Source: Actinomycetota bacterium
Lineage (GTDB): Bacteria; Actinomycetota; Thermoleophilia; Gaiellales; F1-60-MAGs149
DNA length: 41,842 nucleotides
Reading direction: 5' to 3'
Assembly (NCBI GenBank): GCA_009885805.1
Contig: VFJZ01000022.1
Coordinates: 1 to 41,842, forward strand
The position numbers and the translations under genes were made by a program. The notes beneath the pieces are model-generated. The model did no database searches. It was not told where the DNA came from and was given only the letters and a program-made list of their open reading frames with translations. Shown here piece after piece: positions 21,077 through 25,681 of the stretch. Position 1 is the stretch's first letter, and each line of letters begins with the position of its first letter.

Positions 21077-21523
21077 GTGGAGATCGGCGACGGCCCTCTG
21101 GTGCAGGCACTGGCCGACCTCGATCCCGTGCTCCTGGCGGACGAGTACGCACTCCTCGGCTACCCCCGGGGTTCCGCCCCGGCGACGCCTGACGCCGGCG
21201 CTGGCGAGGAGTACACCGTCCGCATCGACGACCCGCTCGAGACGTCGCTGCTCGTCCGGCTCGCGCTCGGCGACCAGCTGCCCGAACCGACGACCCGGCA
21301 GGCGCCGCTGCGCGCGATCGTCCTGCAGAACGAGCTCGCGCACGACCTGACGGGGTTCGTCAGCGTCATCGCCGGCGCCTTCGCCGAACGGAACATCCCG
21401 ATCGTTCCGCTCGGGACGGCGTCGCGCTTTCACCTGCTCGTGTCGACGGCGCACTGGCCGGAGGCGCTCGCCGTGCTGCGCGGCCTCCGCGACGCCTCGC
21501 GCCGGCTGACGGGAGAGCCGTGA
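21077..21523 (+). CDS. ACT-like domain protein
   Basis: 148 residues. The C-terminal half (LRAIVLQNELAHDLTGFVSV through FAERNIPIVPLGTASRFHLL) has the beta-alpha-beta pattern of a small ACT-type regulatory domain. The N-terminal half resembles nothing I recognise. GTG 21077 is chosen because a TACGAT box lies 7 nt upstream; the frame stays open further upstream but without protein character and antisense to the gene at 20462-20974. The stop overlaps the methyltransferase start (GTGA), so the two are likely coupled; the ACT part may bind a small ligand. Confidence 0.65.
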   Translation: MEIGDGPLVQALADLDPVLLADEYALLGYPRGSAPATPDAGAGEEYTVRIDDPLETSLLVRLALGDQLPEPTTRQAPLRAIVLQNELAHDLTGFVSVIAGAFAERNIPIVPLGTASRFHLLVSTAHWPEALAVLRGLRDASRRLTGEP

Positions 21524-22752
21524 CGCTCGATGCGGTCGCCACCGCGATGGCCGAGCCGGGTGCCTTCCACCGGGCGGCTCTGGCCCGTCGCGAGCCGCAG
21601 GGCTGGGTGCGCGTGACCGCCGTGCCGGTCGCGCTCACGGACGGCACGGGCGTCAAGGTCGTCACCAGCGACGGCGTCCGGGAGGAGACGGAGACCGTGC
21701 GGGGCGACGCCTGGGCGGCGCGCCGTGACACCCTGCTCGCGGCCGGGTTCGACACCATCACCGTGCAGACGCCGACCGTCGACGTCAACGTTCGTCGCAC
21801 TCGCCGTGGAAAGGTGCTGGTGGCGAGCGGACGCCCATCGCGCCCCGAGCCCGTCGCGCCCGCGCCACACGACCGGCGCCGGGGGCGGGCACTCGACCCG
21901 GTCGACCCGGCCGTCGCCCGACTGCTGCAGGCGACCGGCCTGGCGGGCGCGTCCGGGCGGCTGCGCGCGGAGCACCGCGACAAGGAGCGCCAGCTCCAGC
22001 ACTACCTCGAGCTGCTCCGCCCCTTGCGGGTGCTCCAGCGCGAGGGGCCGCTGCGCATCGTCGACGCCGGCTGCGGCAAGGCGTACATGAGCCTCGGGCT
22101 CGTCGCGCTCGCGCGACAACTCGGTCGGCAGCCGACGCTGATCGGACTCGACGCGAACGCCGCGATCGTCGAGACGGCCGCTCGGATCGCCGCCGAACTC
22201 GACTACGACTGCACCTTCGAGACCACGGCGATCGCCGACTGGGCCGGCCCGGCGGCCGGCGACACGATCGACGTGCTGGTGTCCCTCCACGCCTGCGACA
22301 CGGCCACCGACGAGGCGATCGCCGCCGGCGTCCGCTTCGGTGCCGGCGCAATCGTCCTCGCCCCGTGCTGCCACCGCGAGCTTGCCGGCGCGCTGAACGA
22401 GGAACAGGCACCCACCGAGGTCGTCCGCCACGGCATCCTCCGCGCCCGCTACTGCGACATCGCGACCGATGCGATCCGCGCCGCCGCCCTCGAGGTGAAC
22501 GGCTACCGCACGGAGGTGATCGAGTTCGTCGCCGCCGAGCATACCGCCCGCAACGTCATGATCCGAGCCGAGCGGCGCGAGGCGCGCGACGCGGCCGCCG
22601 AGGAGCGGGCGACCGCGCGGTACGCCGAACTCCGGCGCCTCTGGCGGACCGCACCGGCGATCGAGCGCCTGCTCGCGCGTGTCGCATTGGTGCCGCACCC
22701 CTTTGCGACATACCCGCGTGTCGCAAAGGGGTGCGGCACCAATGCGACATAG
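21520..22752 (+). CDS. SAM-dependent methyltransferase (METTL25 / Methyltransf_32-like)
   Basis: A 410-residue protein. An N-terminal domain of about 120 residues has the fragment GVKVVTSDGVREETETV. The methyltransferase fold holds motif I IVDAGCGKAYMSLGL near residue 182, the acidic strand LIGLDANAAIVETA, VSLHACDTATDEAI, and LAPCCHRELAGAL, the Cys-Cys-His block of the METTL25/GSTCD-like group. Substrate unknown. The final 24 residues (from about 387) are encoded entirely by a perfect inverted repeat, so the original C-terminus was probably altered by its insertion. The stop TAG at 22750 is also the first part of the next gene's -10 box. Confidence 0.8.
   Translation: MTLDAVATAMAEPGAFHRAALARREPQGWVRVTAVPVALTDGTGVKVVTSDGVREETETVRGDAWAARRDTLLAAGFDTITVQTPTVDVNVRRTRRGKVLVASGRPSRPEPVAPAPHDRRRGRALDPVDPAVARLLQATGLAGASGRLRAEHRDKERQLQHYLELLRPLRVLQREGPLRIVDAGCGKAYMSLGLVALARQLGRQPTLIGLDANAAIVETAARIAAELDYDCTFETTAIADWAGPAAGDTIDVLVSLHACDTATDEAIAAGVRFGAGAIVLAPCCHRELAGALNEEQAPTEVVRHGILRARYCDIATDAIRAAALEVNGYRTEVIEFVAAEHTARNVMIRAERREARDAAAEERATARYAELRRLWRTAPAIERLLARVALVPHPFATYPRVAKGCGTNAT
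22680..22749. repeat. Perfect 31-bp inverted repeat with 8-nt loop
   Basis: Left arm 22680-22710, loop TACCCGCG, right arm 22719-22749. The arms are exact reverse complements, beginning TGTCGCATTGGTGCCGCACC. It lies in frame at the end of the methyltransferase gene and ends at the base before its stop. It could be a palindromic mobile repeat (REP/MITE-like) or act as a strong hairpin terminator, but there is no T run. Confidence 0.9.
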
Positions 22753-22755
22753 ACT
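22750..22755 (+). promoter_or_regulatory. -10 box TAGACT, leaderless start
   Basis: Directly after the 31-bp hairpin and ending 6 nt before GTG 22762. It shares TAG with the methyltransferase stop codon. Confidence 0.45.
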
Positions 22756-22761
22756 CCCGCC

Positions 22762-24270
22762 GTGCTGCGACTCCAGCGGATCGTCGGGGGCCTGCTCGTG
22801 CTCGGCCTCCTCGGCGGCGCCGCCGTTGCGTTCGCCGTCACCCAGTCCCTGAAGGCGGAGCCGCCAACCGTGCTCGAGACGGACTTCTCCCGCGCGCGCT
22901 CGTTCTCCCCCGGCTGCGACTGCGGCGTGCCGACCGCGCGCTTCTCCCTCACGCTGTCGCGAGCCGGCGAGCTATCGGTGCGCATCACGACGCCCGGCGG
23001 GCGGCCGGTGCGGACGCTGCTCGCGGGCGCACGGCGGGCCGGCATCGTCGCGCTCGAATGGGACGGCCGCGACCAGTCGGGCAACGCCGACCTGCGCGAC
23101 GGCCCGTACCAGGTGCAGGTGCGATTCGGCCGCGGGCGCTGGCGCGCCGCCCCGAACGCGATCGTCCGGGTCGACACGCAACCGGCGGCGGTCGTCGTCG
23201 CTGGTACGCCCGGACGGACGATCGCGTTCGGCGCCGCCGGTGACGACGGTGCCCTCACCTACGAGGTCACCACCGACGAGCCCGCGACGGCGACGACCAC
23301 CGTCTTCGCCGTCGCCAGCGACGGAGCGGTTGATGAGGTCTGGCGCAGCGCCGAGCCGCTGCCGCTCGCTCCCGGGGAGCCCGCCACGCTCGTGTGGCCG
23401 GCCGCGCGGCGCGTCGCATCCGAGCCTGCACCCGACGGCACCTACCTCGCCGGTGTCGAGGTCCGCGACGCCGCCGGGAACGTCTCACGGGTGCCTGCAG
23501 CGTTCAGCGTCGACGAGACGGCGCCGGCGCTGCCCGTTCGCGTCCGTTCGCTCGAGATCACGCCGGCCGGACGCGTGCTGACGATCGATCGGCAGATCCG
23601 CGTCGAGCAGCGCCTCCTCGTCGACGACCTGCCCGGTATCCAGGTCGGTGAGCGCGACGGCGATCCCGCGACGCCGACCGCGCCACCTGCACGCGCCGGT
23701 CTGTACGGCCTCCAGGTCTTCGGCAGCCGGGGATCGACGTGGGGCTGGCAGACGGTCGCCGGGCGGGCGCAGATCCTGGTCGTGCTGCCGACCTTCACGT
23801 GGCAGGCCGCGAACACCGCGGACGGTGACCTCGACGGCCTGCCCGACAGCCCGCCGCAGCCGCTGCGCCTGGATCGGCCACTCGCTGGCGGTGCCCGGGC
23901 AGTGCTCGACGCCCTGCTGACGAGCGCGGGCCCGGCACTGGCTGCCGCCGGGCGCTCGGGCGCGATCACCGACTCGAGGCTGGAGGCGTCGGGGGTACCG
24001 CGAGCCGCCCGCCTCCTCGTCGTACCGGAGATGCGCGTGTGGACGCCCCGTCTGATCGCGGTCCTGCAGACGTTCGCTCGGAGGGGCGGCCGCATCGCCC
24101 TGATCGCGTCCCCGCTCGATCGGCGCGGCGAACGCGTGCGCAACACGCTCGTCGTGGAACCGCGCGAGGACGTCGTCACCATCGACGCCCCGCGCGTGAC
24201 GCGCGGTCTCGACGCGGCGGTGCGTTCCGTGGCGGCGATCAGGCGAGCCCGTGTAGCGCCCGTGCCGTGA
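22762..24270 (+). CDS. Membrane-anchored exported protein with FlgD-Ig-like domain
   Basis: 502 residues. One N-terminal transmembrane helix (IVGGLLVLGLLGGAAVAFAV) acts as an uncleaved anchor or signal. A two-Cys segment (GCDCGVPT) follows. The next part (LSVRITTPGGRPVRTLLAGA, EWDGRDQSGNADLRDGPYQV) matches FlgD-type Ig-like repeats that decorate secreted proteins. A second Ig-like unit ends PDGTYLAGVEVRDAAGNVSR. The C-terminal third (LVVLPTFTWQAANTADGDLD, LVVPEMRVWTP) has an alpha/beta look, as in DMFase-like or glutamine-amidotransferase-like domains, without clear catalytic residues. Function unknown. The last 32 nt overlap the NicO gene on the other strand. Confidence 0.7.
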   Translation: MLRLQRIVGGLLVLGLLGGAAVAFAVTQSLKAEPPTVLETDFSRARSFSPGCDCGVPTARFSLTLSRAGELSVRITTPGGRPVRTLLAGARRAGIVALEWDGRDQSGNADLRDGPYQVQVRFGRGRWRAAPNAIVRVDTQPAAVVVAGTPGRTIAFGAAGDDGALTYEVTTDEPATATTTVFAVASDGAVDEVWRSAEPLPLAPGEPATLVWPAARRVASEPAPDGTYLAGVEVRDAAGNVSRVPAAFSVDETAPALPVRVRSLEITPAGRVLTIDRQIRVEQRLLVDDLPGIQVGERDGDPATPTAPPARAGLYGLQVFGSRGSTWGWQTVAGRAQILVVLPTFTWQAANTADGDLDGLPDSPPQPLRLDRPLAGGARAVLDALLTSAGPALAAAGRSGAITDSRLEASGVPRAARLLVVPEMRVWTPRLIAVLQTFARRGGRIALIASPLDRRGERVRNTLVVEPREDVVTIDAPRVTRGLDAAVRSVAAIRRARVAPVP

Positions 24271-25681
24271 GCATGACGCCGAGCACCGTGATGACGACGG
24301 CACTCGCGGCCGGGAGCGCACGCAACGCACGACCCGACGACGGGACGCGGGCGAACAGGCGCCGCGCATAGAGGACCGCCAACCCGATCGCCGAGATCAC
24401 CCCGGCGAGGCCGAGCGAGAACGCCGCGACCAGCACGACGCCGAACGCGGCGCGGTCGAGCGCGACTGCGGACAGGAGCAGGACCAGCGCACTCGGGCAC
24501 GGAATCAGGCCACCCGAGACGCCGAGCGCCACCAGCGAGCGCCACGTGAGCCCCTCGTCCGGCGGGCCGTCATCATGGCCGTGGCCGTGGCCGTGATCGT
24601 GGCCATCGCCGTGGTCGTCATCGTGATCGTGCGCCTGCCCGCCGGCAGCCATAGCGCGGCGGGTCGCTTGGCGCCAGACGCGGAGCCGATCCCGAACGGC
24701 GGTCAGCCCGAGCACGAGCACCAGCAGACCCGAGGCCAGCGCCAGCCACGGGAAGACGGCCTCCGGCGCGAACACCTCCGACAGCGCGATCGTGACCAGT
24801 CCGAGGGCAAACACCGTCGAGGTGTGGGTGACCGTGACGGTGGCACCGAGCGCGAACGCGTGCCTGGCAGTGCCGCGCGAGCCGGCGAGATAGGCGGCCA
24901 CCATCGTCTTGCCGTGGCCCGGTGCGAGTGCGTGGAGCGCACCCCAGCCCGCCGCCAGCAGCAGGGCGAGGACCGCGAGGCCGAGCGTCAGCGGGCGGTC
25001 GGGGGCGATCAGTGACGCCAGACCGTCGCGGTCGCGGCCGGCGACCGCCGAGTCGACGTTGCCGGCGGTGCTGACCGAGCCGACCCGCAGACCGCCTTCG
25101 CCGGGTCGCGTATCGATCGTCGCCTGCAGCATCGCCGGCGGCGACGCGAGCAGGTCCTGCGGATAGGACCGTAGTCCGTCCGTGCGATCGACGATCGCGG
25201 CCGTCGTCGCCGTGACCGCGACGCCCGACGCGCCGGAGACCACGACTTCCTTCCAACCGACCCGGTCGGCCGCATACGTCGATGCGTACGAGATCGTGGC
25301 GGCGCCGGCGTCGAGGCGGACGCCGGTCGCCCGCAGGTCGAGCTCGAGCCGGCTGGTGGCGAGGCCGCCCTGGCCGGCGGGGAAGGTGAGAGCGCTCCGC
25401 GTCACGTCGAGACCGGTCGGCGCGCCGTCGACGCGGACGGTCACGGCAGCCAGGACATCCGCCACCAGTGCCTTCTCCGCGGCGATCCGGTCCTCACCGT
25501 GCCGTTGCAGCAACTGCACCGTCGGGATCTCGGCCTGGTCGAGCACGAACCGGACCGTGACGCCCGCAGGCGCGACCTCGACGTTCGCGTACTGGTTGAC
25601 CGTGAAGTTGCCGAGCGGATGCGCGCCGGCCGTGCCGGCGGTCAGCAGTCCGAGCACCAGCGCGAGCACGACCCGCCTCAC
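24239..25681 (-). CDS. NicO-family nickel/cobalt transporter with fused N-terminal domain
   Basis: A 480-residue membrane protein. After a signal peptide it begins HPLGNFTVNQYANVEVAPAG and carries an outside beta-rich domain of about 200 residues, common in large NicO proteins. The transporter part has about six helices with HALAPGHGKTMVAAYLAGSR (the HxxxPDHG-like metal motif), VTHTSTVFALGLV, and GGLIPCPSALVLLL. A His/Asp-rich loop (HDHDDDHGDGHDHGHGHGHD) lies between helices and likely binds metal. Efflux or uptake of Ni, Co or another divalent metal is expected; direction unknown. The GTG overlaps the TPR gene's stop, so the pair is coupled. Confidence 0.9.
   Translation of the reverse strand: MRRVVLALVLGLLTAGTAGAHPLGNFTVNQYANVEVAPAGVTVRFVLDQAEIPTVQLLQRHGEDRIAAEKALVADVLAAVTVRVDGAPTGLDVTRSALTFPAGQGGLATSRLELDLRATGVRLDAGAATISYASTYAADRVGWKEVVVSGASGVAVTATTAAIVDRTDGLRSYPQDLLASPPAMLQATIDTRPGEGGLRVGSVSTAGNVDSAVAGRDRDGLASLIAPDRPLTLGLAVLALLLAAGWGALHALAPGHGKTMVAAYLAGSRGTARHAFALGATVTVTHTSTVFALGLVTIALSEVFAPEAVFPWLALASGLLVLVLGLTAVRDRLRVWRQATRRAMAAGGQAHDHDDDHGDGHDHGHGHGHDDGPPDEGLTWRSLVALGVSGGLIPCPSALVLLLSAVALDRAAFGVVLVAAFSLGLAGVISAIGLAVLYARRLFARVPSSGRALRALPAASAVVITVLGVMLTARALHGLA

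Follow-up and report, generated by a model that had tools for sequence, protein, structure and literature searches.

In the sections of PMC3733652 consulted for this study, TIRYT genes are described as bracketed by TIRs, some of them moderately repeated and in dimers. The same sections report that GTAG REPs often give neighboring ORFs a TAG stop and that REPs are found within ORFs, some at the ends; repeat elements at gene ends that provide stop or terminal codons are already described there. The corresponding sections of PMC6006769 assign HTH-like tails to TnpA-Y1 subclass 2.1, for which no REP-like partners were found, and only subclass 1.1 to the Actinobacteridae of the sample. Judged from these sections, the TIRYTs are probably the same as subclass 2.1. 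In the extracts used of PMC3116915 and PMC8266576, REPINs are presented as replicating units and TnpA-REP as an enzyme that cleaves single strands with GTAG as the guide. Searches of open-licence PMC texts returned nothing on the four 13-mer cores, RAYT REPs in Actinobacteria, or palindromic repeats of Thermoleophilia or Gaiella, and a single match for palindromic REPINs in Actinobacteria; the wider literature may differ. The palindrome described here belongs, as a REPIN-like doublet, to a family of palindromes associated with a transposase, and is known in kind. Within the literature searched, the novelty lies in the lineage, in the absence of a GTAG tag, and in the association of a TIRYT-like enzyme with a repeat population.

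The palindrome occupies positions 22680–22749 of the window, the whole 41,842-nt contig that was analyzed. An earlier note on this DNA had described a perfect 31-bp palindrome with an 8-nt loop, and the inverted-repeat search agreed: the left arm (22680–22710, arm orientation minus) and the right arm (22719–22749, plus) are reverse-complementary at 31 of 31 nt (100%), separated by a spacer of 8 nt (22711–22718). The runner-up inverted repeat listed in 22000–23500 had 23 nt at 91%. RNA folding of the 70-nt palindrome gave −67.3 kcal/mol compared with a shuffled mean of −24.3 kcal/mol (z −13.9; 0 of 200 shuffles equaled it), and DNA folding gave one hairpin of −44.6 kcal/mol (z −13.1). Each single arm is itself a quasi-palindrome with an outer stem of 7 bp and a short inner stem (−13.0 and −13.2 kcal/mol), a property absent from the earlier note. 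By eye, the arm appears to be open in all six frames. The sole Rfam match at E ≤ 1 in 21500–24500 was a microRNA family with 29.2 bits, compared with a gathering score of 100; the match was put down to the long hairpin.

The window palindrome is one inverted doublet of a dispersed repeat family, for which we use our own name REP-A. In the genome of the window (G000; 3.56 Mb, 101 contigs, 95.2% complete), a 91-nt query gave at least 81 rows with the best 40 of 45 candidates scored. The stem pattern TGTCGC-N17..21-GCGACA occurred 61 times, compared with one occurrence of the reversed pattern, and at least four of the listed places are unrelated between the stems. Collection in stretches around the matches yielded at least 63 arms, which are distributed over 44 sites and 30 contigs; two of the arms are doubtful (7 and 8 mismatches). 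The earlier note would have been refuted by the absence of other copies from the genome; copies are in fact numerous. The majority sequence of the arms is TGTCGCAAAGGTGTGCGGCACGATTGCGACA, all seven outer pairs are kept in 47 of the 63, and 29 distinct sequences occur among them. The inner core GTGCCAGGCAC or its complement is found in some copies (C5, C69, C72, C78, and C40:13085). The search in relatives that the earlier note had also suggested gave the opposite outcome, as neither 60 relatives nor 398 further genomes from the class contained a match to the 70-nt palindrome at E ≤ 0.001.

Twelve inverted REP-A doublets were found, of which seven have identical arms. Their spacers are 6 nt in eight cases and 8 nt in two (the window and C78). 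Summed over the 12 doublets, the arms differ by 8 mismatches, while shuffling of the arms gave a mean of 40.7 and a minimum of 13 (0 of 20,000 as low); with the window left out, the values are 8 and 36.9. The effect is weaker for seven same-direction arm pairs (15 mismatches compared with 23.0 when shuffled, p 0.005), five of which also have the 6-nt spacing. The inverted doublet is not the sole arrangement of REP-A, and the direction of the quasi-palindromic arms is partly ambiguous. G at arm position 12 was observed in 2 of the 63 arms, both of them in the window. This base, private to the two window arms, could result either from copying between the arms or from movement of the doublet as a single unit, alternatives that are indistinguishable here; its presence in both arms suggests copying between them. 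It also fits the recent origin or gene conversion that the earlier note had read from the exact identity. A private base is also present in one other doublet (C69), whose arms are so symmetric that direction and base are uncertain. We tested the REPIN expectation of better conserved doublets as well. Unlike the REPINs reported in the extracts cited above, conservation among REP-A doublets is no higher than among singlets (3.55 and 3.52 mismatches per pair on average, respectively).

The earlier note had proposed looking for an associated TnpA-REP enzyme, and a TnpA-REP-like gene with REP-A on both sides was found on contig C33. The ATG of this transposase gene is at C33:35961 and the REP-A arms are at C33:35918, 36650, and 36687. 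One arm ends 12 nt upstream of the ATG and two arms lie within the last codons of the gene. Two of the three arms have the two commonest of the 29 arm sequences (7 arms each, themselves counted), and the third is 3 positions off the nearest template. By eye, the upstream arm is extended by CTCCTCCG / CGGAGGAG (L030 905–973), and the extended hairpin might mask GGAGGAG, the ribosome-binding site of the C33 gene.

G000 has three Y1_Tnp genes above the Pfam cut-off. A protein search with the C33 transposase counted four matches in G000, the fourth of which is absent from the listing. The lengths of the three proteins are 254, 243, and 230 aa, compared with about 238 aa for TIRYT/subclass 2.1 enzymes. 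In an alignment of 25 sequences, the catalytic residues H60, H62, Y119, N123, and P124 are invariant. The AlphaFold2 model of the C33 transposase has a mean pLDDT of 86.6, with block means of 66, 49, and 42 in the REP-encoded tail (about residues 231–254). The best PDB match of the predicted fold is 4er8, a REP-associated transposase (E 3.1e-07), and 2xma and 2vjv are also among the fold matches. All three proteins match one NCBIfam model, REP-associated tyrosine transposase (RAYT, NF047646), with scores of 74.2, 55.5, and 64.4 bits, which are below its cut-off of 80. HTH-type Pfam matches all stayed below cut-off, the strongest being that of the C16 protein (3.2e-05), and the C-terminal part is helical in the predicted structure.

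The other two transposase genes have palindromes of their own. The C98 gene has an upstream palindrome only, designated as REP-B (L043 1598–1667, equal to G000:C98:8597–8666), with perfect 31-nt arms, an 8-nt loop, and three places in the genome. The C16 gene has 33-nt palindromes (REP-C, GTGAAAGAA..TTCTTTCAC) on both sides (L044 1482–1514 and 2249–2281), with at least 35 places in the genome among the best 40 of 80 candidates. Long terminal inverted repeats around the gene are thus present at C33 and C16 and not at C98. In another genome of the order, locus L103 has a stem similar to REP-C around GGGGTCAGACCCC.

The C33 enzyme resembles the HTH-bearing TIRYT type. As in the TIRYT/TIRtron systems, so far as the sections cited above cover them, NH[VYL]H and Y..NP motifs occur in proteins of about 230–250 aa with a C-terminal part that may be weakly HTH-like, and the gene is bracketed by inverted repeats, some families of which are moderately repeated and in dimers. 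According to the same sections, REP-A differs in being a self-complementary 31-nt unit with the outer stem TGTCGC/GCGACA, and the exact GGGGWSAS found in the majority of published cases is absent from its consensus. The window arm has 7 of the 8 positions of this motif (GGGGTGCG), and several relatives in the order carry GGGGTCAG in the repeat, fitting the published motif. The lineage is also different, Thermoleophilia being unmentioned in those sections of PMC3733652 and PMC6006769.

The features shared with the RAYT REP/REPIN systems of E. coli and Pseudomonas, again as portrayed in the extracts, are an HUH/Y1 enzyme with the 4er8 fold, encoded between copies of its own repeat, together with inverted doublets folding to one hairpin and copies mostly outside genes. 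In contrast to those systems, REP-A lacks GTAG or GTGG directly before the stem: at the stem foot, T is at −3 in 2 of the 63 arms, and the usual bases are C at −2 (44 of 63) and G at −1 (48 of 63). The enzyme here also has an extra C-terminal domain and falls under the NCBIfam RAYT cut-off. IS200/IS605 elements have the same HUH/Y1 catalytic fold, as indicated by the 2xma and 2vjv matches, and hairpins at their ends, whereas the present enzymes have Y..NP in place of Y...Q, each repeat family has one divergent gene, and many of the hairpins stand without a transposase gene.

With a probability of roughly 0.8, we regard the window palindrome as an inverted doublet of REP-A and a non-autonomous element cognate to the C33 Y1/HUH transposase. 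The dispersed family, the near-constant spacing and like arms of its doublets, the position of copies at gene 3′ ends, the unconserved methyltransferase tail, and the transposase gene flanked by REP-A support the REP-type mobile palindrome that the earlier note had envisaged. The same-direction pairs, the lack of higher conservation in doublets, and the score below the RAYT cut-off speak against it. We infer movement from these data: REP-A probably spread through the genome with the help of the C33 transposase. Its arms would fold in single-stranded DNA, for example in the lagging-strand template, where the transposase would bind the hairpin and cut and join strands, so that a copy would land elsewhere. 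Landing just before the methyltransferase stop may have been tolerated because only a variable C-terminal tail was changed. The identity of the arms could be kept because the whole doublet is copied as a single hairpin, or because the template is switched inside the palindrome.

The doublet lies in frame in a 410-codon ORF (21520–22752, plus strand) with a Methyltransf_32 domain (5.8e-28). As the earlier note had it, the palindrome supplies the last codons, namely the final 23 residues (VALVPHPFATYPRVAKGCGTNAT), and the TAG stop (22750–22752) follows directly. When exactly the 70 nt are deleted, the frame misses this TAG and continues to residue 420; therefore, the insert also determines the frame of the methyltransferase to its stop. 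Homologues were taken from 15 loci of the contig collection and from matches in 19 of the 129 genomes of the order (own included). The 34 loci compared include duplicates, as five tested pairs are identical across both collections and two further pairs look alike. Five of them have no stop before the end of the locus and are uninformative on the C-terminus. The other 29 stop about 20 residues or less from the position of the ERLL motif of the window protein, with tails that have no visible likeness to its 23-residue tail. The comparison indicates that the methyltransferase does not need the doublet-encoded segment and that the peptide is unconserved; conservation of the protein across this segment, which the earlier note had set against an insertion, was not seen among these homologues.

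The TAG stop lies within TAGACT (22750–22755, plus strand), which begins 12 nt upstream of the GTG (22762) of the next ORF. This ORF (22762–24270, plus strand; 502 aa, FlgD_ig domain) begins 12 nt past the palindrome. At 87 starts called by our own script in this genome, TANNNT was counted 22 times at offsets of −14 to −12 (11 at −12, 7 at −13, and 4 at −14) and 4 times over the whole remainder of the range between −40 and −6. This clustering suggests that the genome has many leaderless genes and makes plausible the remark in the earlier note that the TAG is part of the −10 box of the next gene; the stop codon may double as the −10 element of a leaderless downstream gene.

The positions of the copies bear on a different explanation, in which REP-A is kept mainly as RNA hairpins at 3′ ends that terminate transcripts or protect their ends, with only a historical link to the transposase. 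Using gene ends from our own codon-usage gene caller, trained on 12 window ORFs, 28 of the 44 REP-A sites are no more than 25 nt away from the 3′ end of a gene, compared with 10.3% of 2200 random places. This bias and the high stability of the RNA hairpin would be expected from such a role, although tolerance of insertions would leave the same bias. Sites deep inside a gene are 3 of the 44 (77% of random places). A consensus scan of 22400–23000 found 0 terminator-like sites and no T-tract behind the hairpin, which argues against a role as an intrinsic terminator and gives no support of this type, in this interval, to the termination between two genes that the earlier note had considered. The scan also found 0 sigma-70 promoter-like sites there. 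In addition, 10 of the 44 sites are near gene 5′ ends (8.1% of random places), and six sites, among them the one in the window, have terminal codons supplied by the element; therefore, some REP-A copies would be translated through. We consider a primary role as RNA hairpins to be rather improbable.

A sequence that is short, dispersed, and palindromic could also be taken for a MITE derived from a conventional DDE (double-strand) transposon unconnected with the Y1 enzyme. Such an origin is highly improbable, as one Y1 transposase gene lies between REP-A copies and the two further Y1 genes are accompanied by their own palindromes. Misassembly of inverted repeats is conceivable in a genome of 101 contigs, but coding sequence goes on at both sides of the palindrome and comparable doublets with other flanks are present on other contigs. 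An assembly or amplification artefact would be very surprising indeed.

The association of REP-A with a Y1 transposase has counterparts in the order. Five loci of the order are identical in sequence to named MAG records, three of them from Thermoleophilia and two from Actinomycetota, so that the order is most likely one of Thermoleophilia. Relatives of the C33 protein were detected in 96 of its 129 genomes, own included (E ≤ 1e-10). Flanks were compared at 29 loci of relatives, which are the best loci returned and not a random sample; at two of them the flanks are short. At 13 of the 29 loci, the two flanks share an inverted repeat that scores at least 17, a value reached by none of 300 control pairs, whose maximum was 16.0 (the threshold was set once the data had been viewed). 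A 13-mer palindrome starting with GG is present in exact form on both sides of the gene at 11 of the 29 loci (0 of 300 controls), with two different ones at L104. It is on one side at 7 loci (11 of 300 controls) and on neither side at 11. The core GGKGTCWGACMCC occurs in 99 of the 129 genomes with up to 262 copies per genome (reversed control, at most 1), and GGTGCCWGGCACC in 63, where the count reaches 43 (no more than 2 for the control); the corresponding numbers in G000 are 0 and 4. The median number of cores is 18 in genomes with a transposase match and 1 in those without (p 8e-10, genomes treated regardless of relatedness). The exceptions are 14 of the 96 transposase-positive genomes, in which the cores number less than 3, and G090, a negative genome with 27. 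In a draw of 396 genomes from the phylum, GGKGTCWGACMCC is patchy (any copy in 97); at least 5 copies are present in 14 of 391 genomes outside the order, with a maximum of 106. Four far relatives in the phylum (G617, G142, G502, and G539) have 57 to 106 core copies amid many genomes with none.

We tentatively propose, at somewhat less than even odds, that, across an order of Thermoleophilia, HTH-bearing Y1 transposases maintain REPIN-like populations of their own that lack GTAG. Each element would consist of a 13-bp palindromic core (GGGGTCWGACCCC, GGTGTCWGACACC, GGTGCCWGGCACC, and variants including that of REP-A) in a lineage-specific outer stem; specificity would come from core and stem and not from a guide tetranucleotide, and new families would arise by change of the stem. 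REP-A and its probable transposase extend the partnership of single-strand transposases with hairpin repeats to a class of actinobacteria that is deep and little studied, as well as to a type of transposase for which, in the sections cited of the literature, no REP-like partners were reported. With three separate transposase–palindrome pairs in one genome and relatives in 96 genomes of the order, the system offers a test bed for GTAG-free hairpin choice. Annotators may note that some C-terminal tails are repeat-derived.

At four loci of relatives (L078, L080, L089, and L094), the downstream inverted repeat apparently overlaps the 3′ end of the transposase gene, as judged by eye, and appears to give its last codons (tails ..CKT and ..LTEIGV) and a TGA stop. 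In another genome (G007), five places on contigs C5, C16, and C18 have the cores GGGGTCAGACCCC and GGGGTCTGACCCC in inverted pairs with a separation of exactly 43 nt.
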